Shown piece after piece: positions 5,211 to 52,000 of a DNA stretch of 64,000 bases. The first letter of the stretch is position 1. The number at the start of each line of letters is the position of its first letter. Origin of the DNA: Ruminococcaceae bacterium Marseille-P2935 (GTDB lineage: Bacteria; Bacillota; Clostridia; Oscillospirales; Ruminococcaceae); assembly GCA_900104565.1 (NCBI GenBank), contig LT629951.1:124001-188000 (forward strand), in the 5' to 3' direction. The notes under the pieces were generated by a model, which did not search any database, was not told the origin of the DNA, and worked only from the letters and a program-made list of their open reading frames with translations. The position numbers were made by a program, and so were the translations under genes.

Positions 5211-5322
5211 CAGGGCAGTAAGTGAAGAATTGGTAACAGGTAAGGTGATTCGTACCAAACTTGTATTAATGTTCTCGAAAACTATTTAGAATCTCTGATT
5301 TTATTTAGTGAGTGCGGCTATT

Positions 5323-5574
5323 CCCCTATGCGGGGGGCAGGTACTTTTACTCGTGTAAAAGTACCCAAAACACGCTGCTCGCGCAGGGCTTTTCTCGTTG
5401 CACCTGAAACGGCTGACGCCTGGCTTAATGCCCTGCACAGTCGTCCTCGGCTGCACATGCTCCAAGCGCCCTGGCTAACCGACAGCGCGTCGCAGTGCAG
5501 CGGACTACGGCCGTACCCTCGGGGCTTTCCATATAGGCTTTGCAAAAAACATCTGGCTACCCGTTGGCAGGTGC
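5323..5574. repeat. 252-bp dispersed repeat, copy B
   Basis: Direct repeat of copy A, differing by scattered substitutions and small indels (for example a missing TGG near 5474). Its hairpin is at 5340-5365. It lies about 110 bases after the end of copy A. Confidence 0.75.
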
Positions 5575-5589
5575 TGGCCATGGGAGTAA

Positions 5590-5618
5590 GTATAATAAGC
5601 GCTTTGCGGTTATTATAC
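5590..5618. repeat. Further copy of the hairpin from the 92-bp repeat
   Basis: Arms GTATAATAAGCGC and GCGGTTATTATAC (12 of 13 pairs) flank a TTT loop. It is the intact form of the hairpin interrupted at 4958. The rest of 5619-5893 shows no gene or clear structure. Confidence 0.6.
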
Positions 5619-5901
5619 CACAAGGTCGGTCAAAAGTTTCAATGTTTTGCAGTAAAACAGAACCGCAGGGCAGTAATTTTTCAAAATAGGTGCTCCCCGG
5701 CCCTACCCGCCATAAATTGGTCCACATTGCCCACCAGCATTTGCAGCGGCAGTTCAATAAAATTGGCCAGGTCAGCTTCATGAAATAGCCGGTTCTATTT
5801 AATTCCTGCAGGTTTTGCAAAACGGTTACCCCATTTGTTTTTAGTATACTGTGGACATCTTAAAAATTACTTTATGACGCCCTTACATTTTTCTTAATGA
5901 A

Positions 5902-7804: not shown

Positions 7805-8755
7805 TTAAAGTACCTGGTTCTTTTTGGGGTCCACAAGCTGTAAATAAGCATGAAGCCGTGTTTGAACCTCCCGCCTGCTTACCTGGGAAAGCTCGATTGA
7901 GAGCAGATGCTCTATGACAAAAGAAGAGGATACAATCCCCCGGACTGTACTGAGGAAAGGGTCTCGGTCTTTGATATAGCCTGCCATAAAGCCGCCGCAA
8001 AAGCTATCTCCGCAGCCGGTAATGTTAACCACCTTGCTGGGGCAGGGGGGCAGTTGCCAGGCTTTGCCTTCTTTGGGGCAATAGGTGAAAACACCCCGAT
8101 CCCCCATTTTAACGCAAAAAACCTGGACCGCATCGGTTACCAGCCGGTCAAGGTAAGGAATATACTCCAAAGGGTTTTGGGGCTGGGGTATCTGGAACAG
8201 CTCCCCTAATTCCTTTTCGCTTGGCAGAAAGCAGTTGACCCGTTTCATCTGTTCCATGCGGGCAGACAGCTCGTCAGCCGCAATAAATGGGTCGACGCTA
8301 ACGACCGCATCTGCCGGCAGGGAATTCAGCCAGTCTCCGTTTTCCTTCCTGGAGCAGGAAACCAGGTGATACCCCAGGCAGCTTCCCCGGTAATCTGCGG
8401 GCAGTTCATCAGGAGTAGGGGTCATCTGCCAATGTTCGCTGGACCCTTCTACAAAGTCGATCCGTTTTTTGTCCCCCTTCTCATCCAGGTAAACAAGGTC
8501 ATCTATAATGCCCACCAAATCCTGATGGCAGGTCACCCCCGAAAAATCAATGCCATAGGCTTCAAAGCGTTTCAGGGCATTTGTATCATAACGGTGCCCA
8601 ATGCGGGAAACCACACCAACGTCATCCATCCAAAAGGAGGCGCCGATTGCCGCATAAAGGCTGCCTCCTCCCGGCAGGCCGGAAATTCGTGTACCGTCAC
8701 AGCTGACAATATTATCGGTAGTAAGGTTGCCCACGCAGGCCAAACGAATAGACAT
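7805..8755 (-). CDS. PfkB/ribokinase-family sugar kinase
   Basis: Cytoplasmic kinase of 316 residues, normal for the family. It has the N-terminal substrate-binding motif (GGGSLYAAI near 28-37) and the C-terminal PfkB signature NITGCGDSFCGGF. The Asp of that signature is the catalytic base and the surrounding glycines form the anion hole. It should phosphorylate a sugar or sugar adduct with ATP; the substrate cannot be read. It diverges from the GntR/UTRA regulator and the SIS genes. PfkB kinase plus SIS deglycase plus UTRA regulator is the layout of fructosamine catabolism (FrlD, FrlB, FrlR), so a phosphorylated Amadori compound is one candidate. Ribosome site AGAGGG precedes the ATG. Confidence 0.88.
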   Translation of the reverse strand: MSIRLACVGNLTTDNIVSCDGTRISGLPGGGSLYAAIGASFWMDDVGVVSRIGHRYDTNALKRFEAYGIDFSGVTCHQDLVGIIDDLVYLDEKGDKKRIDFVEGSSEHWQMTPTPDELPADYRGSCLGYHLVSCSRKENGDWLNSLPADAVVSVDPFIAADELSARMEQMKRVNCFLPSEKELGELFQIPQPQNPLEYIPYLDRLVTDAVQVFCVKMGDRGVFTYCPKEGKAWQLPPCPSKVVNITGCGDSFCGGFMAGYIKDRDPFLSTVRGIVSSSFVIEHLLSIELSQVSRREVQTRLHAYLQLVDPKKNQVL

Positions 8756-8821
8756 CCCAGATTCCCTCTTTCCATTTGATCACCCATCGGTTTTTTCAAG
8801 ATACCGGACGGGATTTTTTTT

Positions 8822-8857
8822 ATTATAACAATATTTTTGCATCTCTTTCTATTGACA
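8822..8857 (-). promoter_or_regulatory. Promoter of the kinase gene with TGTCAATAGAAAGA motif
   Basis: Minus strand TGTCAATAGAAAGA begins at 8857, and TATAAT lies at 8827-8822. The distance between them is exactly that of the divergent plus-strand copy at 9083-9118. There is no TTGACA at the usual place. Confidence 0.55.
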
Positions 8858-8917
8858 GAATGGGAAAACAATCTGGCTGTTTTCCATCCACTACCACCAA
8901 CTTGATCTTATTTATGG

Positions 8918-8938
8918 GACAAGTCTCCTGGTCTTGTC
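8918..8938. promoter_or_regulatory. Candidate operator 1 in the divergent region
   Basis: Inverted repeat GACAAG, 9 bases, CTTGTC. It shares the half-site GGACAAGT with the second inverted repeat about 100 bases away. It may be a binding site of the GntR/UTRA regulator encoded next door. Confidence 0.35.
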
Positions 8939-9013
8939 TTCCCATGATGCCAGGCTGGTGTTTTGAAAAACCTATGTGGACCTGCATGAGGCTGTGGATT
9001 TTTGATCATTATA

Positions 9014-9044
9014 ACAACTTGTACCATATAGTTGGACAAGTTGT
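9014..9044. promoter_or_regulatory. Candidate operator 2 in the divergent region
   Basis: Perfect 9-bp inverted repeat ACAACTTGT, 13 bases, ACAAGTTGT. It lies upstream of the plus-strand promoter motif at 9083 and is the strongest palindrome between the kinase and regulator genes. Confidence 0.45.
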
Positions 9045-9082
9045 TGATTTTGAATTGAAATATGGGAAATAGTTTTCTGTAT

Positions 9083-9118
9083 TGTCAATGGAAAGAAGAA
9101 GGAGCAGGCTGATATAAT
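9083..9118 (+). promoter_or_regulatory. Promoter of the GntR/SIS genes with TGTCAATGGAAAGA motif
   Basis: TGTCAATGGAAAGA starts at 9083 and TATAAT is at 9113-9118, with the same 30-base offset as the minus-strand copy. A leader of about 170 bases follows before the GntR start. Confidence 0.55.
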
Positions 9119-9297
9119 GAAACTACAGGGTTCTGACCTGCCCCAACCCTTACATTATGCTGGGCTTTTCCTATATTAAATAATAAAAGTCCCGGAACAC
9201 AGCAAGCATACCAACCTTTCCCTTACCGGTGCCCTTTGCGTTTTTTTGCAGAAAGGTCCGGTTTTTAGAAAAAACCTAGGGAATCAGGAGATGACAC

Positions 9298-10014
9298 ATG
9301 CAAAGAAATTATAAATATAACCAAATTATTCAGCTGCTGACCAGGAGAATTATAGACCAGGAATACCCCCCGGGAACAAACATGCCCAGCGAACATGAGC
9401 TGATGGCGGAGCATGGCATTAGCCGCAATACCGCCAGGCATGTTTTAAATGGCCTGCAGGAGATGGGAATGATTCGTCGCCAGCGGGGCAAACGCGGCAT
9501 TGTAACCAACAGTAAAATTATTGACAATGTGGCAAAAAGCAGCCGTGTCAGTGAAATACTGGCGGAAAATAAACGTTTTTCTTACAGCAAGGTAATCTCC
9601 ATTTCCTTGGTGGAGGCCCCTGCTCAGGCAGCCGAGTTCCTTGGACTTTGCCCAGGTGACCCGGTGGTGCGCATCTACCGCCAAAGGTTGGCGGACCATC
9701 TTCCGCTGGTGATTAATGACACCTATTTAAACCCCAGTCCGTTTGGGTTTTTATTAAACAGCAATTTGGAAAATCTTTCTCTCAACAATTATATTCAGCG
9801 TACCGTTGGAATCCAGGCTGGGGCTGCAAGGCGCGACCTTGAAATTATTACCTTAACCGAAACGGAGGCCGGCCTGCTGGGGCGTCAGCCCGGGGATCCG
9901 GCGTTTTTGCAAACCCAATATTTGTGGGACAGCCAGGGCGCGCCCTTTTATTTTAACTGGTCCATTTACCGGGCCGATATGGTTAAATTTTCGTTTTCTT
10001 CCACGGGCAGCTAA
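9298..10014 (+). CDS. GntR-family regulator with UTRA ligand domain
   Basis: Transcription factor of 238 residues. The N-terminal winged helix (about 5-72) has the GntR signature PSEHELMAEHGISRNTAR. A UTRA ligand-binding domain (about 90-235) contains VVRIYRQR and LVINDTYL. UTRA domains usually bind phosphorylated sugars or related small molecules, which relieve repression. It is divergent from the kinase gene and heads the SIS/YjbQ gene row, so it probably controls both directions through the palindromes in the shared intergenic region. AGGAG lies 7 bases before the ATG. FrlR, NagR and similar repressors have this architecture; the actual ligand is unknown. Confidence 0.92.
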   Translation: MQRNYKYNQIIQLLTRRIIDQEYPPGTNMPSEHELMAEHGISRNTARHVLNGLQEMGMIRRQRGKRGIVTNSKIIDNVAKSSRVSEILAENKRFSYSKVISISLVEAPAQAAEFLGLCPGDPVVRIYRQRLADHLPLVINDTYLNPSPFGFLLNSNLENLSLNNYIQRTVGIQAGAARRDLEIITLTETEAGLLGRQPGDPAFLQTQYLWDSQGAPFYFNWSIYRADMVKFSFSSTGS

Positions 10015-10293
10015 AGCTTAGGGGCTCTTTAAGGCGAAGGGCCATGGTTCCACTGGGGAGGAGCCAGCCGGGGCAGACAGCCTCTGGGGCTTATTCCGTG
10101 AAGGGGGTGCCCGCTGGGAACCGCCCGGAAGGAAATGAGGCCTTGTACCGGCAAAACCCTGCAGTACCGGAAGCCTTTTGGCAAAGTGTACCTTGCCCGG
10201 CAATAACGCAGCCGCAGCGTAAGACTTTTGCTGAAACAGTATACTAAAAATTACACCGGGGTTTTCCGGGATAAAATGAAAGGAGACTACATT
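10015..10293 (+). other. Spacer between GntR and the first SIS gene
   Basis: No gene fits here. A TATACT at 10240-10245 could be a -10 box but lacks a good -35. The spacer may therefore hold a second promoter or only a leader. Confidence 0.3.
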
Positions 10294-11469
10294 ATGCATG
10301 AAACGATTCAATTGATGTTGGAAGAAATTGCGTCCCAGGGAAATTTATTTGACGCCAGCCGGGAGGATTTGATGATTCAGTGCCGCAGCCTGATCAAAGA
10401 GATTGGAGCAGACCGGATCAAAAAAGTTTATATCGCTGGCTGCGGAGATTCTTTTTATGCGGGAATTAACTGCCGGGACCTATTTTTGAAATACGCCGGC
10501 CTTCATACCGAGGCATGGCAGGCGCTGGAGTTTTCCCGGTATGTATGTAACTATGAGGTTGATGAAAGCTCGCTGGTCATCTGCATCTCCAACAGCGGCA
10601 AAGTTTCCCGTACGGTAGAATGTGCGATCCGTGCCCAGGAAAAAGGTGCCGTTGTTATAGGCTACACCAGTAATAAAGAAAGCCCGCTGGCCAAGGCCTG
10701 CTCTTACCAGGTGTTTACCACTGTTCCCCAGTATCAGAACATCCATATTCCAGGTACCTTCTCCTACGGGGCGTCTATGATGGGGCTGGTGTGCATGGCC
10801 ATTGCCCTGGGTGAAGCCAGAGGGGCGTTAAGCGGCAGCCAGGTAACAGAGCTGTGCGACTATATACATAAGCTGGGCAAGTGCGTCAAGCCAACGGTAG
10901 AGGCCTGTTCCCCAATGATTGAGCGCTATACCGACATTTACCTGGGAGAAGATTCCCCGCTGCGGGTGAAGCTGTTCCATTTTGTGGGCAGCGGCCCCAA
11001 CTGGGGCAATGCCCAGTATGCTTCCGAAAAGATGCTGGAATCCGCCCGGTTTGATGCGGTGTGCCAAGGCACCGAAGAGTGGGCCCATACCCAGTACTTT
11101 ACCACCCGGGTGGGCACCCATACGGTCATTTTGGCGCCAAGGGGAGAATCCCGTGAGCGGGCAATTGAAATTATGCAGGCGGTAACCGTTATGGACGGAA
11201 AGAAGATTGTAATTGGCGAAGACTCCGACCAGGAGCTGCGCCGTTCGGCAGATATTTACTTCCCTATCTGCGGCATGGAAAATATCCGCGAAGAATTTTC
11301 CCCGCTGCTTTACCCCCTTCCAATTGCGCTGTTGTCCATGCATTTGGGCAGGGTGCTGGGTGCACAGGCCTTTGGGTTTGACAAACCCTGGATATTGCAG
11401 GAAAACCTGCGCCAAATTTGGGAATCCAAAGTGGTTTCCCTTCAGGAGTCGAAGCAAGAGGATCGATGA
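10294..11469 (+). CDS. SIS-domain phosphosugar enzyme 1 (FrlB/GlmS-isomerase-like)
   Basis: Cytoplasmic protein of 391 residues with two SIS domains. The sugar-phosphate loop YIAGCGDSFYAG (near residue 50) and SNSGKVSRT (near 105) are intact. E249 and H265 are spaced 16 apart, as are the catalytic Glu/His pair of the GlmS isomerase domain and of FraB-type deglycases. This copy therefore looks catalytically complete. It lacks the glutaminase domain of GlmS. The ATG at 10294 has AAAGGAG eight bases upstream; a longer frame from 10228 is not supported. It is the first of three SIS paralogs alternating with YjbQ genes. Deglycase, isomerase or aminosugar deaminase are all possible. Confidence 0.87.
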   Translation: MHETIQLMLEEIASQGNLFDASREDLMIQCRSLIKEIGADRIKKVYIAGCGDSFYAGINCRDLFLKYAGLHTEAWQALEFSRYVCNYEVDESSLVICISNSGKVSRTVECAIRAQEKGAVVIGYTSNKESPLAKACSYQVFTTVPQYQNIHIPGTFSYGASMMGLVCMAIALGEARGALSGSQVTELCDYIHKLGKCVKPTVEACSPMIERYTDIYLGEDSPLRVKLFHFVGSGPNWGNAQYASEKMLESARFDAVCQGTEEWAHTQYFTTRVGTHTVILAPRGESRERAIEIMQAVTVMDGKKIVIGEDSDQELRRSADIYFPICGMENIREEFSPLLYPLPIALLSMHLGRVLGAQAFGFDKPWILQENLRQIWESKVVSLQESKQEDR

Positions 11470-11909
11470 AATCCGCCCGGCTGTTTTTCGGCCATATGAC
11501 GAAGAAAGCACGTACCCCCAACGCTGGCAGAAAGCTGAAGGTTTTTAGTTAAATACCTGTTTTTTTACAGCATGTTCCGCTATGCAGGAATGCCCGTGGT
11601 TTTGAAGGCCGGTTCACAATAGGAATTCCGTCTAAATTTTTATTCTGCCCGCAGGTGGCCGCACCTTTATTCCTGGCCTAATGGGCAGCCCATTTTATTT
11701 AGGCCGGTTTATTTTGTGTGTCGGCCCTGCAGGGCCGTGCATTTACGGCAATAGCTGGGGACGGCCTTAGCAGCCAATGGTTAACAGCGGCTTACGGTTT
11801 GTTTTTAAATAAAATGAAAAACCGCTCCGAGGGTGTTTGCTGCTTTGGCATGCCACAGGAGCGGTTTGTTCCGAAAACAGAAATACCAACTCATCCAGGA
11901 GGACAAGCA
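11470..11909 (+). other. Long leader of the second SIS gene, with hairpins
   Basis: No gene. It contains the 16-base palindrome CGGCCCTGCAGGGCCG (11722-11737) and a 10-bp stem AAACCGCTCC/GGAGCGGTTT with a 29-base loop (11819-11867). The second hairpin ends 30 bases before the ribosome site. It has no T-run, so it is more likely an mRNA stability or control element than a terminator. Confidence 0.4.
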
Positions 11910-13037
11910 ATGAACAAAACAGAGTATGATCACCCCGTTTTACGGCAGTGCCGCCTTACGCCAGGAATTGTAAAGACGGTGCTGGATGTTATGGATTATG
12001 ACAAGCTGGTAGATGTTTTACCAATCAAAGAGCTGTTTGACGCCCAGCAGATTGTGCTGTTGGCCAGCGGCCCGGAACTGCCGGCAGGCATAGCGGCCAA
12101 GGCTATTTTTGAAAGTGTGGTAAAAATGGACGTACGCGTGGCTACCACTTTGGAATTTTCCCGGTTTATAAACAGTAAGGAGCTGGGCTTTGCGCCGAAT
12201 ACCCCGCTGGTGGTAGCCCTTTCCATAACAGGGGACGAGGCCAGAATGACCGAGAGTATTCTGCGCGCTAACCGCTATGGTGCCAATACCCTGCTCATTA
12301 CCAACAGCCCCGACTCCCCTGCTGCAAGTAATGCAAAACATGTGCTGACGCTGCAGCTGCCAGAAGGAGATTGCAGCCAGGGGGCCTGTGCCCTCACGGC
12401 GCTTATGACAGCCCTTACAGCAATGATGCTAAGATTTGCCCGTGCCAGGAATAAGGCTACCATGCAGCAGATGACCGCGATGGAACAGGGCCTGAGGCAG
12501 TATGCCGATGATTGGCAGGCACTGCTGCCCCAAATGGAAGAACAGGCCGTCCAGCTGGCACAGTCCTGGAAAGGCCTGCGCGCCTATGATTTGATTGGAG
12601 ATTATGCCGATTTTGCAACAGCCCTGGCAGGCAGGGATCGTATCGCAGAATGCACCGGTGCCCATGCCGTCTGCAGCGACAGCGAAGACTGGTGCCATGT
12701 GAACTATTACCTCAGCCAGCCGGAACAGATTGGGCGGGCGGCGGTGGCAAATTCCGATACCCCTTCCTATGGCCGCGTAAAGGAAACGCTGCAGGCAGTA
12801 ACAGACCTGCAAAGCCCCTGTGTGGTAATCAGTGACCGGGATGGCCATGAGTTCCCGAAGGGTTGCCAGGTATTTACAGCCCCGAAACCTTCCCACTTCT
12901 GGATGGCGCCGCTGCTGCAGCACCTTCCGCTGGGCCTGATGGCGGGCTATATGGCTGCTTTGACCCATGAAACACCGCTCAACCCAAAAGAGATGGGATT
13001 TCACCCGGTAAAAGACAGCCAAATCCAGATTATTTAA
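11910..13037 (+). CDS. SIS-domain protein 2 with degenerate phosphosugar loop
   Basis: 375 residues, paralogous to its neighbours along its length. The Glu/His pair is kept (E247 and H263, 16 apart, in SEDWCH). The phosphosugar loop that reads GCGDS in copy 1 reads ASGPE here, and SNSGK is replaced by SITGD, so direct phosphosugar binding is doubtful. The ATG at 11910 has AGGAGG seven bases upstream; the longer upstream frame is leader. Twelve bases separate it from the next gene. It may be a partner subunit of copy 1 or 3, or bind a different ligand. Confidence 0.85.
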   Translation: MNKTEYDHPVLRQCRLTPGIVKTVLDVMDYDKLVDVLPIKELFDAQQIVLLASGPELPAGIAAKAIFESVVKMDVRVATTLEFSRFINSKELGFAPNTPLVVALSITGDEARMTESILRANRYGANTLLITNSPDSPAASNAKHVLTLQLPEGDCSQGACALTALMTALTAMMLRFARARNKATMQQMTAMEQGLRQYADDWQALLPQMEEQAVQLAQSWKGLRAYDLIGDYADFATALAGRDRIAECTGAHAVCSDSEDWCHVNYYLSQPEQIGRAAVANSDTPSYGRVKETLQAVTDLQSPCVVISDRDGHEFPKGCQVFTAPKPSHFWMAPLLQHLPLGLMAGYMAALTHETPLNPKEMGFHPVKDSQIQII

Positions 13038-13049
13038 GGGGGAATCGGT

Positions 13050-13454
13050 ATGATTGAAATGCAGGAAATCACCACCAAACAAAATGGTGTTCATAACATA
13101 ACCGCCCAGGTGAAAGAAATTGTTGCCCGAAGCGGGGTGAAAGACGGAATTGTTACCGTGCAGGTGCCCCACTCCACGGCAGGCGTTGTGGCAACCTCCT
13201 TCTATGACCCAAAGGTCATGGAGGATTTGATGGTCGAGGTAAAACGTCTTGTGCCTTCCCGAATTAATTTTCGGCATGAGGAAGCGCCGGACGATGCGGC
13301 AGGCCATATTAAATGCGCGCTGTTTGGTTCGTCAGTTACCTCCATTTTGAAAGACGGCGCTTTTGTGGCCGAGGACGCTTTGGGCTGGTTCCTATTGGAA
13401 TATGACGGGCCCCGAAACCGCCGGTTCTATGTATCGGTAATTGCAGACAGATAA
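13050..13454 (+). CDS. YjbQ-family protein 1 (UPF0047)
   Basis: 134 residues, a full-length YjbQ fold. Family motifs are present: PHSTAGV with H41, H76, AGHIK with H86, GSSVT, and the C-terminal LEYDGPRNRR. The conserved histidines form the presumed metal or active site. Some family members show weak thiamine-phosphate synthase activity, but the physiological reaction is not settled. Placement between SIS genes with 12-base gaps points to phosphosugar chemistry rather than thiamine synthesis. A second copy (14679-15095) sits after the third SIS gene. Confidence 0.88.
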   Translation: MIEMQEITTKQNGVHNITAQVKEIVARSGVKDGIVTVQVPHSTAGVVATSFYDPKVMEDLMVEVKRLVPSRINFRHEEAPDDAAGHIKCALFGSSVTSILKDGAFVAEDALGWFLLEYDGPRNRRFYVSVIADR

Positions 13455-13466
13455 GGAGGTTGTACT

Positions 13467-14666
13467 GTGTTAAATAAAGATTATCATCAAACATTCCTAA
13501 AACAGATTCGCTTAGCCCCTCAGTCAGTCTCCTGTATCGGCACTTTGGTGAGTCCCGGAGAACTGGAAAAGTCTGTTCCGGCAGAACAGCTAAAGGCGAC
13601 CAACCGGGTAATTCTCACCGGCTGCGGGGATGACTACTGTGCCGCACTGGCCGCAAAACCGCTGTATGAACAAATAGAAACCCCGTCGGGGATTCGCCCC
13701 GCAAACCGTACCGAGGCGGAACGCGGTATTGTGTTCAGCCGGTATTACGACACCTACCGCAAATTTTGGCTGGACGATCAAAACGCCGGCCCTAACCGCG
13801 TAAACCCATTGATCTGCTGCGTTTCTGTTTCAGGTTCCTCCAGCCGGGCGGTTGAGGTAATGAGGCGGGCGGGTAAATACCAAAGCGTACCGGTTGCATT
13901 TACCGGGGACTTACAAAATGATGTTGCAAAGTCTGCCCCCTATGCAGTTAACCTGAACGTTACTGCGCAGGACCAGATGCCCAGCGTATCCACTTATGTT
14001 GCGGCGCTCAGTGCACTTTGCCGTTTTGGGCTGCATTACTGTACAATAAAAGGGCAGTTAACCCCCAGCGCTGCCAGCCAGCAGTGGGACGCAGCGCTTC
14101 ATTATGCCGGATCTTTTACCAAAGAAGTAATGGACAGAATAGAAGAACAATCGCGTCAAATGGCACGGCATTGGGTAAATAGCGGCATGAAGCAAATGGA
14201 ACTGGTGGCAGATGGCCCGGACCATGCCACCGCGCTTTTGGGTTCTATTAAAATGGTGGAAAGCTTTGGTGGGCTGACCGATGTGACCGACAGCGAAGAA
14301 TGGTGCCGCCGAAACTATTTTGGCCGGTTTCCCCAGCAAACGGCAACCTTTGTCATTGCCAACCTCACATCCCCGTCCTTTGCCCGCACCTGCGAAATGA
14401 TACGCAGCGCTGTGGCAACGGGGCGTATGGTAGCGGTAATCACCGATGCACCGGAAGTTTATTTTCCCCGTCAGGCCCTGGTAATTCGTATGCCGGCTGC
14501 AAAATACCGGTGGTGCAGTCCGCTTTTGCAACACCTGCCTATGGACTTTGCGGCCGCATGGATTGCATCGCTGCAGAACATGCCTGCATACCGTACAGAC
14601 AACCCCCGGTATGGGAAGGATAAAAATGATATTCGCTTGCGCATGAGCCAAATTGTTACCCTTTGA
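13467..14666 (+). CDS. SIS-domain protein 3 lacking the catalytic histidine
   Basis: 399 residues with a GTG start, preceded by AAGGAGG seven bases upstream. The loop GCGDDYCAA resembles copy 1, and SVSGSSSRAV is a credible second loop. E265 is kept, but the position 16 residues later, His in copies 1 and 2, is R281 (EEWCRRNYF). It also has an insertion of about 17 residues after the first loop (PANRTEAERG region). It is therefore unlikely to catalyse the same reaction alone. It lies 12 bases from the genes on both sides, in one operon. Confidence 0.86.
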   Translation: MLNKDYHQTFLKQIRLAPQSVSCIGTLVSPGELEKSVPAEQLKATNRVILTGCGDDYCAALAAKPLYEQIETPSGIRPANRTEAERGIVFSRYYDTYRKFWLDDQNAGPNRVNPLICCVSVSGSSSRAVEVMRRAGKYQSVPVAFTGDLQNDVAKSAPYAVNLNVTAQDQMPSVSTYVAALSALCRFGLHYCTIKGQLTPSAASQQWDAALHYAGSFTKEVMDRIEEQSRQMARHWVNSGMKQMELVADGPDHATALLGSIKMVESFGGLTDVTDSEEWCRRNYFGRFPQQTATFVIANLTSPSFARTCEMIRSAVATGRMVAVITDAPEVYFPRQALVIRMPAAKYRWCSPLLQHLPMDFAAAWIASLQNMPAYRTDNPRYGKDKNDIRLRMSQIVTL

Positions 14667-14678
14667 GGAGGAAAAAGA

Positions 14679-15095
14679 ATGGCAACCTATATGGATAAAA
14701 TAGACATTTTAACAGAGTATGAAGGGTTTTACAATATTACCCCTATGGTACAACAGGTGATTGCACAGTCTGGAATCCGGGATGGATTCGTCATTCTGCA
14801 CTGCCTTCATTCCACTGCAGGGCTGCTGCTGTATACAGGTTGGGACCCATATGCCAGGCTGGATATGATGGAAGAAATGGACCGGCTGGTACCCACCCGC
14901 AATGATTTTCACCATGTGTACGACACCCCGACTGATGCCTCCGGGCATATCAAAAGCGGCTTGGTGGGGTGCAACCTTACCTTGATTGTAAAGGATGGCA
15001 AGGCGTTTGTAAGCTCGACCCAGGGGATTTGCCTGGCGGAATTTGACGGCCCCCGCCAGCGCCAGGTACATATGAAGGTCGTTTCGGACAATTAA
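14679..15095 (+). CDS. YjbQ-family protein 2 (UPF0047)
   Basis: 138 residues, paralog of the YjbQ protein at 13050. It keeps LHSTAGL with H44, H78/H79, SGHIK with H90 and AEFDGPRQRQ at the C-terminus, so all family histidines are present. It starts with ATG after GAGGAGG. It is the last gene of the operon, followed at once by a strong terminator. Two diverged YjbQ copies in one operon suggest a heteromer or two successive substrates; that is inference. Confidence 0.88.
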   Translation: MATYMDKIDILTEYEGFYNITPMVQQVIAQSGIRDGFVILHCLHSTAGLLLYTGWDPYARLDMMEEMDRLVPTRNDFHHVYDTPTDASGHIKSGLVGCNLTLIVKDGKAFVSSTQGICLAEFDGPRQRQVHMKVVSDN

Positions 15096-15689: not shown

Positions 15690-16841
15690 TTATTTTCTAA
15701 AAAAACCTGATATTAAACCTGCCACCTTATTACTATTTTCAAGCTCTACAGCTTTGAACATGCATAGCTCATGACAACACATACATTCTATGCAGGTGTC
15801 ATAATCAATTAGTTTCGTATCCTTGTCAATGGCTTGAACCGGGCAGCTTTCTACACACATATTGCATTTTTTACACTTACTAGGATTAATTCTAGGATGT
15901 GTATCAAAAAAATCAATCACTTTTACCAGGGCTTTACTATTGCGCTTTTTTGCTCCTCTGAAACATTTGGGAAGTTTAAAATTCCCTAACCTGGGGACTT
16001 GTTCATAATCACCTATAAGTATGGTGCTTTTCAACCGACCTTCTCCCAGTTTCCGTTTCTGGGCTGTTTCCAGTATCGGTACATCTTCAACATCCATCCC
16101 CACCATTTTTGCAGCCACAGCATCCAATGCCAATGGATCTTCACTGATGAGGATTTTATTAGCCTGATAAAGGCTGCCTGCTGTGGGTCCCTCTCCTTGC
16201 ATTGCCAGAATGCCATCCATAATGTGAAGATTTATTTTAGTTGCTTTGTGTATATCGCAGATGATTTGCCCAAAGTTGATTGGATCAGGAGCCATCTTAT
16301 GATACTTCGCCTTCCTGAGCCCCGGTATGCATCCGAATACATTTTTTACAGCTCCGGAAAAAATTTGTGCCGAATGTGTTTTCAGCTTCGGCAAATTTAT
16401 AACCACGTCCGCATCGAACATTGGTTTTGCGATATACATTGTTTCTTCACACTGGCTTTCCGGTCTGACAGCCACCACACCTTCACGATCAAAATTTTTA
16501 ATTAAAGCGCCTTCCTCCTCCGCTACCCTTTCGTATCCTGCAACCTTGAAACCCTGTGCGGTAGGTGCTATTCCGGCTATAGCTCCACCCGAGCTATCAC
16601 CAATCCAAACATTGCAGTTCCTACCCTTTAATATCCTTATCATTGCTCTAACAAATTCTGAGTGTGTTACTGCCGCCGAATCAGATGGCTTGGGCCCAAT
16701 CAGATTTACTTTAAGGAGTACATTATCTTGGGGCTGAACAAATTTATCCCATCCGCCGAGCATTTCTACTGAACCATTGATTTTCTCAATTAGGGTTTCC
16801 AGTTCATAATTTTTACATTCCCGTATAATTACCTTACTCAT
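15690..16841 (-). CDS. DUF362 protein with C-terminal 2[4Fe-4S] ferredoxin domain
   Basis: 383 residues. The DUF362 domain (about 35-295) has VLLKVNLIG, WIGDSSGG and NLPKLKTH. A ferredoxin domain (about 325-370) carries two cysteine clusters, CKKCNMC...CPVQ and CIECMCCHELC, that can hold two [4Fe-4S] clusters. Such proteins are common in anaerobes and are presumed cytoplasmic redox proteins of unsettled function. The ATG at 16841 follows AAGGAG seven bases upstream; a start 18 codons earlier is not supported. It points towards the SIS operon and converges with it. Confidence 0.9.
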   Translation of the reverse strand: MSKVIIRECKNYELETLIEKINGSVEMLGGWDKFVQPQDNVLLKVNLIGPKPSDSAAVTHSEFVRAMIRILKGRNCNVWIGDSSGGAIAGIAPTAQGFKVAGYERVAEEEGALIKNFDREGVVAVRPESQCEETMYIAKPMFDADVVINLPKLKTHSAQIFSGAVKNVFGCIPGLRKAKYHKMAPDPINFGQIICDIHKATKINLHIMDGILAMQGEGPTAGSLYQANKILISEDPLALDAVAAKMVGMDVEDVPILETAQKRKLGEGRLKSTILIGDYEQVPRLGNFKLPKCFRGAKKRNSKALVKVIDFFDTHPRINPSKCKKCNMCVESCPVQAIDKDTKLIDYDTCIECMCCHELCMFKAVELENSNKVAGLISGFFRK

Positions 16842-17542
16842 GCTATTCTCCTTAATGCAAATTTTTGAAATGCTTGTTTTATCTCCAATGTACAAGCTTT
16901 ATCCTATCGATGTTTGTATCATTTCACCACCGATTAGGGGAAAAGCAATAAGGGTATTACAGGGTGTAGCCAAATTAATAGGTTTTTAAATTGTATTAAT
17001 CTTTGCTCGATTATATTAAGGAAAGTCAGCCATTGATATAGGGGAACACCAAAAGGGTACCGTCCAGATAGGAATTTCAATCTTCTTCTGGGTATTGAGA
17101 GCGTGGAATAGATTGAATTTGTCCGGTTCGGACATGCCATAAACTTTTTGAAAGCAGAGACAGCCAAAAGGACTGGCTATGTCCCTTTTCATTACCCTTG
17201 CCCATCTAATCAGAGGCAAATTGGTTAGTGCCGGCGCTCTCTGTTGTGCGTCAGACATAGTCTGTTTTTCCCGTAGGCAGTTTGGAATTTTTACTATCAT
17301 ACCACATACTGGTTGGGTTTTCCAGGTAGGAATTAGGTTGTGTTGGCAGTTTTGGTATCGTGATCCAATTAATTTTTTGTAACTTAACCGCATATTTAAA
17401 TATGTATTTTTCCCCTTGATAAGGCCTTCGAATGTAGAAGCCGGAATTTTTAGAAAAAGAAGCAGCCGGTGAAAGAATAATATAATGGTACTGTGTTTCA
17501 CCGATACCATAAAAGAATGGAACATGTTAGAACATAAAAAAA

Positions 17543-17795: not shown

Positions 17796-19007
17796 CTAAG
17801 CACCCACGGGCGCGGAAAATGCGGCATTTACAACGCTCAAAAGGTGTTCGGGCTTATTATACTTCACCTGCGCATAGATGTCCATAGTTGTCTTGCTGTT
17901 TTCATGCCCCGCAAGATACTGAACTGTCTTTGGATCAACGCCAGCATACAAAAGATTGGTAATGTAGGTATGCCGTAGCTGATGTGGTGTAACGTCAAAA
18001 TCCAGACTATACACAAGTTTAGGATTGTTCTTCTGATGACCGCCAGGAATCGGCGTAACCTTGCATTTAATGCTTTGCCCATTTACATATTTGTAATAGG
18101 TGCGCTCCTTTGTAGACCGAACAACTACATACTGCCATAGCCTCTTAAACTGCGAATCGGCCAGCGGTTGCCCTTTGCTGTCTGCAATCACATATTCGGA
18201 TATGGATGTTGCTTTTACTTGCCTCAGACAATCTGCCAGACACTTTGGAATAGGAATGTCCCTCTGTGCCGCCTTCGTTTTCAATGTTGTCGAAATCACC
18301 GGCCTGTTGTGTTCCGTGCGCCATGCTCTCCTTACAGAAATATATGGCGTAGGTACATCCAGAAACACGCAATCCCACTGCAACGCAAGAATTTCTTCCC
18401 GCCGCAGGCCAGAATAAAGACCGATCATAATAAATACATACGGTGGCAGCTCTCGGACGGTTTCCAGAAGCAGCTTCACCTGTTCATCTGTCAAAGCATT
18501 TTTCTTTTTCCCCGGTTTACCTCCCTTTGCCGATATTCCCACACAAGGGTTATAGTCAAGGAGTTGGTTACGCTCCGCCGAATAAAACACACACTTCAAA
18601 AGCATATTGACCGTGCTGTATAACCCTGCTGATTTTTGGGATAATGGTATGAGTGCCAACCGAATATCGTCTGCTGTCACTTCTGACAAATACATATCTC
18701 CCAGAGGTTTCACAATATAGTTGTTCATATTCTGGGTATAGCCTTTCAAAGTGCTTGAAGATACCTTGGCTGACTGCATGAGCAGCCACTTCTCACAATA
18801 CTCAGCAACTGTCGGATGTTTTCTGCGGAAAACTGCCTCCTCTACTTGGCGTCGAGCTTCCAACTCTTTTTCATAAAGCTCCTCGCTCGTTTCAGCGTAT
18901 AAGTCTACTCTCTTACCGTCTGCGTCTGTAATCCGCGTCCTATAATACTGGATTCCTCTCCTCATAACAGTTCCATACTGAGGAATACTCACTTTTTTCT
19001 TAGCCAT
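17796..19007 (-). CDS. Tyrosine recombinase (ICE integrase) A
   Basis: 403 residues. An N-terminal arm-binding region, a core-binding SAM-like domain (about 60-160) and a catalytic domain hold the active-site set: Arg in YSGLRREE, His-x-x-Arg in HQLRH, His in LAGHENS and the nucleophile Tyr in MDIYAQVKY. It should integrate and excise the element by strand exchange. I start it at the ATG at 19007 (MAKKKVS) with AAGGAAC upstream; a 46-codon extension is not supported. It is a close paralog of integrase B directly upstream, and both share a 15-base element upstream of the start. Confidence 0.93.
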   Translation of the reverse strand: MAKKKVSIPQYGTVMRRGIQYYRTRITDADGKRVDLYAETSEELYEKELEARRQVEEAVFRRKHPTVAEYCEKWLLMQSAKVSSSTLKGYTQNMNNYIVKPLGDMYLSEVTADDIRLALIPLSQKSAGLYSTVNMLLKCVFYSAERNQLLDYNPCVGISAKGGKPGKKKNALTDEQVKLLLETVRELPPYVFIMIGLYSGLRREEILALQWDCVFLDVPTPYISVRRAWRTEHNRPVISTTLKTKAAQRDIPIPKCLADCLRQVKATSISEYVIADSKGQPLADSQFKRLWQYVVVRSTKERTYYKYVNGQSIKCKVTPIPGGHQKNNPKLVYSLDFDVTPHQLRHTYITNLLYAGVDPKTVQYLAGHENSKTTMDIYAQVKYNKPEHLLSVVNAAFSAPVGA

Positions 19008-19080
19008 GCTTTCAGTTCCTTTCCTATTATTATGTAGTTCAGCGCTGATACTATCTTTATACTGAAAATCCATGGCTCTT

Positions 19081-19095
19081 TCAAAGGTGCGATTT
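19081..19095 (-). repeat. 15-base element upstream of integrase A
   Basis: TCAAAGGTGCGATTT on the plus strand. It is identical to 20446-20460, which lies at a similar distance upstream of integrase B. It may be a shared control or recombinase-binding site, or a remnant of the duplication. Confidence 0.5.
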
Positions 19096-19148
19096 ATGTA
19101 ATAGCAAAAGGCGAGGGTTCCCCCTCGCCTTCGCAATGTTTTCATTTT

Positions 19149-20381
19149 TTACTGTGCTGTTCCATATTCGGCTTCGTCCCATTGAGCAAATGCGTCCGTT
19201 AAAACTCCTGCCAGTTCATCCGGCTTGTTATATTTAACTTTTGCATATATGTCCATGGTAATCTTGCTGCTCTCATGCCCTGCCAAATATTGAACTGTTT
19301 TAGGGTCTACTGATGAATGAATCAAATTGGTGATATAAGTGTGACGTAGTTGGTGCGGTGTAACATCAAAATCGAGGCTGTAAATCACTTTCCCGTTATG
19401 TGCTGCTTTTTCTCCGAGAACCGGATTGACGGTATGCTTCACACGTTTTCCGTTCTCATACCTATAATATACTCGAGGCTTTGCTGTTCTGGTAACGATA
19501 TACTGCCACAATCTCTTAAACTGCGTATAGGAAAGCGGCTCCCCATCCCGATTGGCGATCACATATTCTGATGTCGATTTTTTCTTTGCCTCTCTCAAAC
19601 AATCCGCCAAACGATCTGGAAGGGGGATATTCCTTTCCGCAGCTTTTGTCTTTAACTCTGTGAGAATAATTGGCCGGTTATGCTCTGTATGCCACGCTCT
19701 CCGAACCGTCAAATAGGGAGCCTCTGTGTCTAAATATACCGAATCCCATTGCAGCGCAAGAATTTCTTCACGCCTCAAACCGGCATACAAACCAATCATA
19801 ACAAACACATAGGGCGGTAATCCCTGAATAGCGTCTAAAAGCCGTTCTGCTTGTTCATCTGTCAACGCCTGTTTGTCCTCTTGAGGAATCCCGCCGCCTT
19901 TGGCATTGAGATATATTGTTGGGTTCGTATCAATGACATGACTTTCCTGTGCTGCGCGAAAAATGGACTTATACAGGATGATAACCGACTTATACACAGA
20001 TACGGATTTCTTTGAAACCGGAACAAGCGCAACCTGGATGTCGTCCAATGTTACTTCTGCCATCCTCTTTTGGCCCAGCTCCTTAATAATATGTCGCCGT
20101 ACCTTGGATGTGTAATCTGTCAATGTCGTATTACGAATATGGACAGACTGCATAAGCAACCACTTTTCACAATACTCTGCGACAGTAGGGGATTTTTGAC
20201 GGAATGTGATGTTGTCAACCTTCTCCAATGCCGCCATTTCCTTATCGTATAGTTCTTCACGAGTTTTGCCGTAAAGGATTACACGCTTACCCTCTGCGTC
20301 CTCAACATCGGTTCTATAATACTTATGACCGTTCACTTGAACTGTACCATATCTGGGGATTCGCTTTTTTCTTAAAGCCAT
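19149..20381 (-). CDS. Tyrosine recombinase (ICE integrase) B
   Basis: 410 residues, colinear with integrase A and with the same complete active site (Arg in YAGLRREE, HQLRH, LAGHESS, Tyr in MDIYAKVKY). The N-terminal arm-binding part (RIPRYGTVQVNGH) differs more. Tandem integrases may form a heteromer, or one may act on integration and the other on excision. The next gene upstream encodes an excisionase-like protein, whose last bases overlap the 15-base repeat element before this gene. Ribosome site GGAGG lies upstream of the ATG. Confidence 0.93.
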   Translation of the reverse strand: MALRKKRIPRYGTVQVNGHKYYRTDVEDAEGKRVILYGKTREELYDKEMAALEKVDNITFRQKSPTVAEYCEKWLLMQSVHIRNTTLTDYTSKVRRHIIKELGQKRMAEVTLDDIQVALVPVSKKSVSVYKSVIILYKSIFRAAQESHVIDTNPTIYLNAKGGGIPQEDKQALTDEQAERLLDAIQGLPPYVFVMIGLYAGLRREEILALQWDSVYLDTEAPYLTVRRAWHTEHNRPIILTELKTKAAERNIPLPDRLADCLREAKKKSTSEYVIANRDGEPLSYTQFKRLWQYIVTRTAKPRVYYRYENGKRVKHTVNPVLGEKAAHNGKVIYSLDFDVTPHQLRHTYITNLIHSSVDPKTVQYLAGHESSKITMDIYAKVKYNKPDELAGVLTDAFAQWDEAEYGTAQ

Positions 20382-49037: not shown

Positions 49038-52000
49038 TCAACGCTCCAATCCCACAACCTTCCGTTCCGGGACTTCTTCGCCCTCATCGGGAACGCTGTC
49101 AATGAGCGTCTTGTCTTTCTCATCCACTTTCAGCAGGACGTTCAGTTCATTCAATCGGGCGGTTTTTTCCGCCAGCTCCTCCTCGCGGGCAAAGGGCGCG
49201 CCCAATTCAGCGCGGGCATTTTCAAGCTGCCCTTTTGTTTCCTCCAGGCTGCTTTGCTCTGCCTGCAAGCTCCCCGCAAGGTTTTCAAGGGCATTGTCCA
49301 GACGGGCGATATTGCCGAACACATCCGCGCCCAGCGTCACCGTATGGGAGAGGGTGCCTTTCAGGGTAATGCGGTACTCGTTGCTGATACCATCATAGGC
49401 CAGCACCATGGAAAAGCCCCTGTATTCTCCCAGCAAAACCGCGTCGGAGCCAGTCATTTTGCTGCAAACGTCGATGATAGCTTTGCCAGCGTCCTCTTTT
49501 TCGGCATACTGTTTGCCCTCGATCACCATGCCGCAGAAGCCCTCTTGACCTTTCGGATGGGCGGCTGCCAGCGCCACATCCTTCTCATAGCCCGCAATCC
49601 GTTCTGTAATCCGAGCGATGTCTGCCGGGTATTCGCGCAGCACCAGCTCCTCCAGGGAATACCGCTGATTGAGATAGCTGGCCTTGAGCATATTGAGCTT
49701 TGCCACCTCCATATCCAAATTGCATTTTTCAATGATGAGAGGGTTGCCGGTGGCCAGCGCCTTGATCTCGGAATAGCTGAGGGCCGTTTCGTCCACATCC
49801 TCTGCCACTCGGACAGGGGCCTTGCTGGTCATGATCTGAGCAATGAATTTCTGCTTGTTTTCCACAAGCTGGTAAAGGTAAGCGTCAAACGTACCCTCGG
49901 TTACATAGCGGAAGATTTCCACCTCCTCGTTTTCATTCCCCTGACGGACAATACGGCCCAGCCGCTGCTGAAGGTCGGAAGGCCGCCAGGGGCAATCCAG
50001 ATCGTGCAGGGCGATCAGCCTGTCCTGTACGTTAGTGCCAGCGCCCATCTTCTGAGTGCTTCCCATCAGCACTCGTATCTGCCCGGCACGGACTTTCGCA
50101 AACAGCGCCTTCTTTTTTACCTCACTGTCGGCGTCATGGATGAACGCGATCTCATCCTCCGGGATACCCTGCTCCATGAGCTTCTTTTTCAGATCGTCAT
50201 ATACGTTGAAAGAGCCGTCTTTGGTGGGCGTGGACAGATCGCAGAATACAAGCTGGGTCGAACGCTGTTCTTTGGTCTGTTCCCAGATTTTGTAGACGTT
50301 CCGGGCGCAGACAGCCACCTTGCCGTTTGGGTCGTCGGCAGCCAGCGGGTTGATAAGACGCATATCCAGGGCCAGCTTGCGCCCGTCATTGGTAATGCGC
50401 AGCATATTGTCCACATGGGGGTCAACGCCTCCATCCCGGATTTTTTCCGCCCGTTCCGCCAGCCCTTTCACCATCTCCTGCTGAAGCTCGGACGGCTTGA
50501 TAACCTCTGTGTGAAAGTTGGCCTTTGGCACGGGAAGATGGAGCATATCTGCCGTCTGGATGTCGGCCACCTGTTTGAAAGCGGCCATCAGCTCCGGCAG
50601 ATTGAAAAACTTGGCAAACCGGGTCTTGGCCCGATAACCGGTGCCTTCCGGGGACAGCTCGATGGCGGTGATGGTTTCTCCAAAGTCGCTGGCCCAATCG
50701 TCAAAATGGATGAGGCCCATTTCCTGCAACAGCCCGTACTGCAAATACCGCTGGATGGTGTAAAGCTCCACCATACTGTTCGAGATGGGGGTGCCTGTGG
50801 CAAAAATTGTGCCGCGCCCTCCGGTGAGTTCATCCAGATAGCGACATTTCATAAAGAGGTCGGAACTTTTCTGCGCTTCGGTCTGGGCGATCCCGCCTAC
50901 GTTGCGCATTTTCGTCATTAAAAAGAGGTTCTTAAAATAATGGCTCTCATCCACAAACAGGCGGTCAACGCCGAGCTGCTCAAACGTCACCACATCGTCC
51001 TTGCGGCTCTGGTCGTTCAGTTTTTCCAGCTTTGCCTCTAAGGATTTCCGGGTGCGCTCCATCTGCTTGACGGTGTAGCGTTCCGCCTTCTGTGCTTTGG
51101 CCTGTTCAATGCCAAACAGGATTTCATCAATCTGCTGCTGTAAAATGGCCTGCTGGCGCTCGGCGCTCATGGGGATTTTCTCAAACTGGCTGTGGCCGAT
51201 GATAACCGCGTCATAGTCGCCGGTGGCAATACGGCTGCAAAACTTCTTGCGGTTTTGTGTTTCAAAGTCTTTTTTCGTAGCAACCAGAATATTGGCGCTG
51301 GGATAGAGCTGGAGCCATTCCGCCGCCCATTGTTCCGTGAGATGGTTTGGCACCACCACAAGCGACTTGGTGCAAAGCCCCAGCCGTTTCATCTCCATGG
51401 CGGCGGCCACCATTTCAAAGGTTTTGCCCGCGCCTACCTCGTGAGCCAGCAGGGTATTCCCGCCGTACATAACATGGGCGATGGCATTGATCTGGTGGGG
51501 CCGCAGCGTAATTGCCGGGTTCATGCCCTCGAAACGGATATGCTGGCCGTCGTATTCACGGGGACGGCTGGAATTGAAGGTTTCGTTGTAGATGGCGCAC
51601 AGCCGTTCCCTGCGGTCGATGTCTTTCCAAACCCACTCGGAAAACCTCTGCTTGATAAGCTCCTGCCTGTCCTGGGCGATAGCGGTTTCTTTTTTGTTGA
51701 GAACCGGCTTTTTATTGCCATGTTCGTCCTCGATATAATCAAAAACCCGCACATCCTTCTGGTTCAGGGTTTGCTCCAGGATGTGGTAGGCGCTCATGCG
51801 CTTGGTGCCGTAGGTGGTGTTAGCCTTGACATTGGCCCGGTCAAAGTTTTTCTCGGTGATATTCCACTGGCCGGTGGACTCGGAGCGCAGGATTTTGATA
51901 CGATTCTGGGCCTGCCCATAGGGAGTGAGCAGCTCCACCATAAACTGCTGATATACGTCGATAGGAACCCAATTCGCGCCAATACGCACACCGATCTCCC

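Follow-up and report, generated by a model that had tools for sequence, protein, structure and literature searches.

In the genome of Ruminococcaceae bacterium Marseille-P2935 (2.67 Mb, completeness rated 100%), we examined a window of 64,000 nucleotides (C6:124001-188000) that holds a cluster of seven genes at positions 7805-15095, encoding a PfkB-family kinase, a GntR/UTRA regulator, three SIS proteins and two YjbQ (UPF0047) proteins. Four of these genes, in the order SIS2-YjbQ1-SIS3-YjbQ2, belong to a conserved gene neighbourhood, and we see an even chance that their products assemble into a single hetero-oligomeric enzyme system through which the cell uses the sugar moiety of nucleosides or of related N-ribosides. 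A more specific version, which we put forward tentatively, is that a SIS heterodimer with one composite site and a homo- or heterotrimer of YjbQ make up an undescribed hetero-oligomer that breaks down a phosphorylated N-riboside, whose C1-N bond YjbQ would cleave or re-form. If this is true, the module would provide the first physiological YjbQ reaction and a new route of nucleoside catabolism.

All seven genes were open and complete with intact frames, and each scored above the curated Pfam cut-off (PF00294 for the kinase, PF00392 and PF07702 for the regulator, PF01380 for each of the three SIS proteins, and PF01894 for both YjbQs). SIS2 (SIS-a, 11910-13037), YjbQ1 (13050-13454), SIS3 (SIS-b, 13467-14666) and YjbQ2 (14679-15095) lie on the plus strand, and a gap of 12 bases separates SIS2 from YjbQ1, YjbQ1 from SIS3, and SIS3 from YjbQ2. 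These coordinates and Pfam matches bear out the layout given in the original prediction, made from the sequence of the window: a divergent kinase and regulator, then SIS-SIS-YjbQ-SIS-YjbQ, with 12-base gaps from SIS2 on. The YjbQ assignments were clear, at 99 and 106 bits against PF01894 (cut-off 27), and 103 and 100 bits against TIGR00149 (cut-off 67.75).

Co-occurrence of SIS and YjbQ genes in other genomes had been named beforehand as a check on the original prediction. We scanned 84,980 bacterial and archaeal species with a profile of SIS2 relatives (A1) that contained no YjbQ information, calling genes in G+C-rich loci with profile guidance, and obtained 76 distinct loci (these and other loci are numbered with L below). 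YjbQ accompanied SIS in 58 of the 76. The median gap over 93 steps from a SIS gene to a YjbQ gene was 12 bases, and in 87 of the 93 the two genes were no more than 60 bases apart. This conserved neighbourhood supports the earlier proposal that YjbQ is a dedicated SIS partner. With S for SIS and Y for YjbQ, the arrangements were S-Y (17 loci), S-Y-S-Y (16), S-(YY fusion)-S-Y (10), S-Y-Y-S-Y (3), S-Y-S-Y-Y (3) and minor forms. The number of YjbQs (one, two, three, or a fused two plus one) was not one per active SIS. Of the functional SIS-YjbQ pairs that had been proposed, the pairing stands; the one-to-one correspondence does not, and the SIS duplicates look like the halves of a heterodimer.

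The carriers were members of Oscillospiraceae, Erysipelotrichaceae, Lachnospiraceae, Christensenella, Peptococcaceae and Paenibacillus/Bacillus, with one carrier outside Bacillota, a member of Sphaerochaetaceae (Spirochaetota). L041, L044, L045 and L046 contain orthologs of the four module genes of the window, matched position by position, so the SIS-YjbQ duplication is old: YjbQ1 was 52-61% and YjbQ2 47-59% identical to its own counterparts, and identity across the two positions was 38-47%. A tree placed YjbQ2 as the ortholog of the second YjbQ in other S-Y-S-Y loci, and separated 58 SIS-linked YjbQs from 32 lone YjbQs by a branch with support of 88. The host genome carries a second SIS-YjbQ pair (C7:170946-172522, L036). 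Among 343 genomes sampled from the host's class, some YjbQ was present in 148 and a SIS of the module kind in the host alone; no other member of the SIS module exceeded 150 bits in this survey, and the next matches were mostly proteins of GlmS length (600 residues). The SIS-YjbQ system is therefore rare. We found no description of a SIS-YjbQ system in open-licence literature, represented for YjbQ/UPF0047 by titles and abstracts, and nothing relevant there on SIS combined with nucleoside hydrolase, BtpA, PfkB or ADP-ribosylglycohydrolase.

Several loci had unusual gene structures. Tandem YjbQ-YjbQ fusions of 266-277 residues were present in L076, L078, L080, L083, L084, L092-L094, L101, L110, L115 and L125, and in several of them the conserved histidines are gone from the first half. 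Fusions of a Cof-type HAD domain to SIS (640-657 residues) occurred in L119, L126 and L128-L131, which have no YjbQ; their neighbours were an ADP-ribosylglycohydrolase, a sugar importer of the ATP-binding cassette (ABC) type and a TIM barrel protein. In two Christensenella-type loci, a gene of the 5-formyltetrahydrofolate cyclo-ligase family sits between SIS and YjbQ (L085, 11185-11934; L096, 11193-11951).

The SIS profile aligned with the isomerase domains of GFAT and GlmS. When the AlphaFold model of SIS2 (mean predicted local distance difference test, pLDDT, 93.5) was compared with solved folds, these domains gave Z scores of 38-41 at 18-20% identity, ahead of NagB-II (29-33), FrlB (31) and FraB (28). 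SIS residues Lys244, Glu247 and His263 matched, in the numbering of E. coli GlmS, Lys485, Glu488 and His504, with the same spacing (Lys three residues before Glu, Glu and His 16 apart). Glu488 and His504 of GlmS are catalytic (PMC9272926), the E214A variant of FraB is inactive (PMC10100877), and FraB and FrlB are dimers (PMC9609667). The Lys/Glu/His triad was nearly invariant across the loci. Retention in SIS of the catalytic residues of both GlmS and the deglycase FraB makes a phosphosugar substrate plausible, so this part of the proposed phosphorylated sugar-amine substrate held up, whereas its identification with fructosamine did not (see below). The cluster SIS proteins are not GlmS itself. 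At 375-399 residues they comprise the isomerase part without the glutaminase domain, they score at most 87 bits against equivalog cut-offs of 381-418, the C-terminal Lys603 segment of GlmS lies outside the matched region, and they are paired with YjbQ.

In the window the triad is divided between two double-SIS proteins. SIS2 keeps Glu247 and His263, and has lost the GCGDS phosphate loop (ASGPEL instead) and carries Arg for Lys244. SIS3 is the reverse: its pocket is intact (GCGDD, SxSG, Lys262 and Glu265) and its catalytic His is replaced by Arg (CRRNY for CHINY). We found the same division in the unrelated locus L127, where the first SIS lacks the loop, SxSG, Lys and Glu and keeps His, and the second has the opposite set; in L115 the first SIS keeps His alone and the second is intact. 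The simplest inference is that SIS-a and SIS-b would form an obligate heterodimer with one composite site, because the losses in SIS2 and SIS3 are complementary and are repeated in L127. A competing explanation is that the window copy is a decaying, inactive remnant whose motifs are altered in SIS2 and SIS3. Each of these two proteins does lack residues retained in nearly all relatives, and an integrative element lies beside the cluster; nevertheless, no frame is broken, the two proteins have complementary losses that are seen again in L127, and SIS1 and both YjbQs retain the catalytic residues that we checked. We consider decay quite improbable. The module lends itself well to testing whether two paralogs, each half dead, can build one active site between them.

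YjbQ1 and YjbQ2 each have all nine of the conserved residues checked, and the model of YjbQ1 (pLDDT 95.7) matched solved YjbQ folds (1xbf, 1vmf, 1vmj and others) over its whole length with Z scores of 18-21. A remote-fold search with YjbQ1 gave no notable match other than YjbQ itself, the next matches, at Z of about 5, being background. The SIS-linked YjbQs differ from the solved proteins, which are of unknown or putative function, in forming their own branch. The lone YjbQ of the host (L038) has the same conserved set of His, Lys, Glu, Asp and Arg as the SIS-linked YjbQs. Since YjbQs of the SIS-linked branch retain the residues typical of ordinary ones, working out the module should reveal the role of the family, which is spread over bacteria and archaea and was present in 10 of 14 control genomes. 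Apart from a weak thiamin phosphate synthase activity, YjbQ is not known to have a settled role, and its pairing with SIS in gut and soil bacteria gives this widespread family its first clear biochemical context. In a pattern that parallels the SIS losses, apparently dead YjbQ partners were frequent (L056, L060, L068, L092, L103 and L107), and at least one copy was intact in the loci with two or three YjbQs, although Asp takes the place of Glu117 in L083 and L093. There are nine distinct YjbQ sequences with solved structures in the PDB, and several of the crystals hold three or six chains; a set of three YjbQ domains next to a pair of SIS genes could correspond to a trimer of YjbQ and a dimer of SIS.

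The NCBIfam name of YjbQ raises another explanation, that the cluster serves thiamin salvage or synthesis with YjbQ as thiamin phosphate synthase. Weak activity of this kind is attributed to the family (Morett 2008, as cited in PMC4731195), and the cyclo-ligase-family gene between SIS and YjbQ in two loci could be taken in the same sense. The cluster was ruled out as a thiamin locus because there was no Rfam match, and hence no thiamin pyrophosphate riboswitch, at 7-16 kb of the window, and because none of the recurrent neighbours to which we gave a name was a thi gene. SIS also has no role in thiamin synthesis, and we regard this explanation as extremely improbable. What the activity does suggest is that C-N chemistry by YjbQ is plausible, since thiamin phosphate synthase forms a C-N bond, and no more than that.

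To place the module in a pathway, we clustered the neighbours of the 76 loci and named representatives by Pfam and NCBIfam. PfkB kinases recurred in 51 loci, nucleoside hydrolases (PF01156) in 30, BMP/PnrA-type ABC importers in 20-25, sugar-type ABC importers in 21 and GntR regulators in 20. BtpA and nucleoside-deoxyribosyltransferase-like proteins were each present in 13 loci; two kinds of ADP-ribosylglycohydrolase, nucleoside phosphorylase-like proteins and a psicose-epimerase-like TIM barrel were present in 10 each. A phosphoribosylanthranilate-isomerase-like protein occurred in seven, all from Erysipelotrichaceae. Confirmation was obtained for the families IU_nuc_hydro, Bmp/PnrA, Nuc_deoxyrib_tr, PNP_UDP_1, ADP_ribosyl_GH, PRA isomerase-like and BtpA, and DeoD and DeoB in L091 and DeoC in L086 (beside PfkB-SIS-YjbQ) exceeded their equivalog cut-offs. 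One or more genes for nucleoside import or for splitting N-glycosides were present in 41 of the 58 YjbQ-bearing loci. Within the window's own clade, L060 reads BMP-ATPase-permease-permease-PfkB-SIS-YjbQ-SIS-YjbQ, and L068 has hydrolases on both sides of the module. Of 34 loci, 19 had a nucleoside hydrolase close to the module, compared with 2.4 expected, and simulations never gave more than 10. The expectation was taken from genome counts to allow for the very large hydrolase families of some carriers (56 matches in Neobittarella); the enrichment overstates independence because related genomes share ancestry, yet the association spans several families. PF01156 was expanded to 56, 34 and 21 matches per genome in G636, G637 and G640 (Neobittarella and relatives), and in Neobittarella we also noted two PfkB-SIS-BtpA sets and a BMP protein within 18 kb (L225, C5:308-326 kb), beside an isochorismatase-family hydrolase.

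These neighbours bear on the claim that the cluster follows the frl/fra logic of fructosamine (Amadori) compounds, with a kinase, a deglycase and YjbQ as a partner. The two share a toolkit, since frl/fra/gfr systems also combine a PfkB kinase and a SIS enzyme with UTRA/GntR-type control, FraB and FrlB have a common fold with SIS2 (Z 28-31) and the triad is common to FraB. One PfkB of the host (in L220) weakly matches the fructoselysine-6-kinase model (65 bits, cut-off 247). The kinase of the window scored 28 bits against that cut-off, SIS1 scored 31 bits against a deglycase cut-off of 430, and SIS2 and SIS3 had no match. GlmS-type structures outrank FrlB and FraB, the cluster type has two or three SIS paralogs and YjbQ, and the neighbours of the 76 loci included no fructosamine-type context and recurrently included nucleoside genes instead. 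Membership in a fructosamine pathway was thus rejected on these scores, and we consider such a function improbable.

The host genome is itself rich in nucleoside systems, with five BMP proteins and, in addition to a broken copy, six nucleoside hydrolases of full length. One locus combines a BMP importer, phosphorylases and a hydrolase (L222), and two have PfkB-SIS-BMP ABC-BtpA (L220 and L039). A locus of the type known from pseudouridine catabolism (PsuK-PsuG) reads BMP ABC-PsuG-PfkB (L223, C5:59-65 kb). It resembles the SIS-YjbQ systems in having a PfkB-family kinase beside a BMP ABC importer and an enzyme acting on the phosphorylated product, and differs in that SIS-YjbQ takes the place of PsuG. 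In L221 the order is BMP ABC-PfkB-ribose-1,5-bisphosphate-isomerase-like-BtpA. The window cluster has no importer beside it and fits in well among these parallel systems. In another genome, a 66% ortholog of SIS1 lies near methylthioribose kinase and isomerase genes (L219), a context that is again one of nucleoside-derived pentose.

The cluster resembles a kinase-isomerase branch of nucleoside sugar catabolism, in which the module most likely works on a phosphorylated (deoxy)ribosyl compound at its C1 end, the substrate being a pentose phosphate or its amine adduct. In the sequence of steps that we propose, a BMP/PnrA-type ABC importer, encoded for the window elsewhere in the genome, would bring in a nucleoside-like compound, from which a nucleoside hydrolase or similar enzyme and a PfkB kinase would produce a phosphorylated (deoxy)ribosyl compound. 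A SIS2/SIS3 heterodimer, whose composite site would combine the pocket of SIS3 with the histidine of SIS2, would then shift the C1-C2 proton by GlmS-like chemistry (an aldose/ketose or Amadori-type rearrangement). Our guess is that a YjbQ oligomer acts at the anomeric carbon of the same intermediate, either opening the ring or making or breaking the C1-N bond, and there is a real chance that this step is new chemistry. The UTRA-GntR protein may sense a phosphorylated intermediate. Such a module would mark nucleoside-using gut bacteria.

The same context could also be explained by a simple pentose-phosphate route, in which the sugar is freed from the nucleoside and phosphorylated, and SIS would be an aldose-ketose isomerase only and YjbQ a mutarotase analogous to RbsD, with no sugar-amine chemistry. 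The known pentose bisphosphate route likewise acts on a nucleoside sugar with a PfkB ribose-1-phosphate kinase and an isomerase (ribose-1,5-bisphosphate isomerase, e2b2), and an e2b2-like gene holds the equivalent place in L221, beside the BMP ABC importer, PfkB and BtpA, which favours plain pentose phosphate as the substrate. That isomerase is non-homologous to SIS, and the PfkB of the module is no ribose-1-phosphate kinase equivalog. The DeoC gene of L086 and the psicose-epimerase-like TIM barrel in 10 loci also agree with a simple route; against it, SIS is closest to the amine-handling enzymes GlmS, NagB-II and FraB, and plain ribose requires no such system. The phosphoribosylanthranilate-isomerase-like (Amadori) neighbour in seven loci favours an amine adduct. 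On balance, we find the simple route somewhat unlikely.

Several observations weigh against a SIS-YjbQ enzyme system for nucleoside sugars. No transporter or nucleoside enzyme adjoins the cluster in the window, so the nucleoside link there rests on relatives, and 17 of the 58 YjbQ-bearing loci have no such gene within reach. The second SIS-YjbQ pair of the host adjoins an NhaC antiporter gene and a tryptophanase/tyrosine phenol-lyase-like gene (L036, 11808-13202, 0.3 kb past the pair), which points to a possible part for an aromatic amino acid, or for its adduct, in the reaction of this pair. YjbQ is not always needed, since 18 of the 76 SIS loci lack it, and L127, the second case of complementary loss, is one without YjbQ. 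Our count of residue conservation is biased because the patterns used in the locus scan required the His motif or the GDS motif. The heterodimer argument leans on the GlmS histidine being supplied by the neighbouring subunit, as Teplyakov and colleagues reportedly described in 1998, and we found no support in open-text literature for an in-trans position of the GlmS or FraB histidine.

The remaining genes of the cluster lie upstream of the module. The PfkB-family sugar/nucleoside kinase (7805-8755, minus strand, divergent from the other cluster genes) scored 56 bits against PF00294 (cut-off 25.8) and has the phosphate-transfer motif GCGDSF. It matched no characterised PfkB equivalog (ribokinase, PsuK, ribose-1-phosphate kinase or frlD), with all NCBIfam scores far under cut-off, and within the host genome it is most closely related (32%) to the kinase of a PfkB-SIS1 pair. 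Between the kinase and the GntR/UTRA regulator (9298-10014, plus strand), a repeat search identified a perfect 10-base inverted repeat at 9013-9045, AACAACTTGT-N13-ACAAGTTGTT, a candidate operator; its half-site pattern was not enriched within the window. SIS1, a GlmS-isomerase-like double-SIS protein (10294-11469, plus strand), gave a GlmS-domain match of 87 bits, keeps all checked catalytic residues, and has, besides the L219 ortholog, a 49% paralog paired with PfkB at C7:646-649 kb of the host. The gaps on either side of SIS1 are wider, 279 bases after the GntR gene and 440 bases before SIS2, the latter containing a hairpin with a 10/10 stem (11819-11867, plus strand) directly 5' of SIS2 that could be a terminator or attenuator. 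The probable starts of SIS1 (10294) and SIS2 (11910) each have a ribosome site upstream.

Ordinary chromosomal genes lie 5' of the cluster. On the 3' side, a DUF362/ferredoxin gene (15690-16895) has a third-position G+C of 0.36 compared with 0.54-0.61 for the cluster, and this much lower value suggests a different origin. An integrative conjugative element (17796-64000) begins about 2.7 kb past the cluster with integrases (17796-20381) and includes conjugation-type genes and an open reading frame of 3136 residues (49038-58448). The host's family also takes in Neobittarella, Bittarella and Fournierella-type genomes. Finally, a repeated intergenic sequence (translated TGAGTFTRVKVP) was found at 5318-5783 of the window and at 9158-9508 and 10934-11284 of L038, where its copies lie on either side of a tandemly duplicated glycosyltransferase gene.

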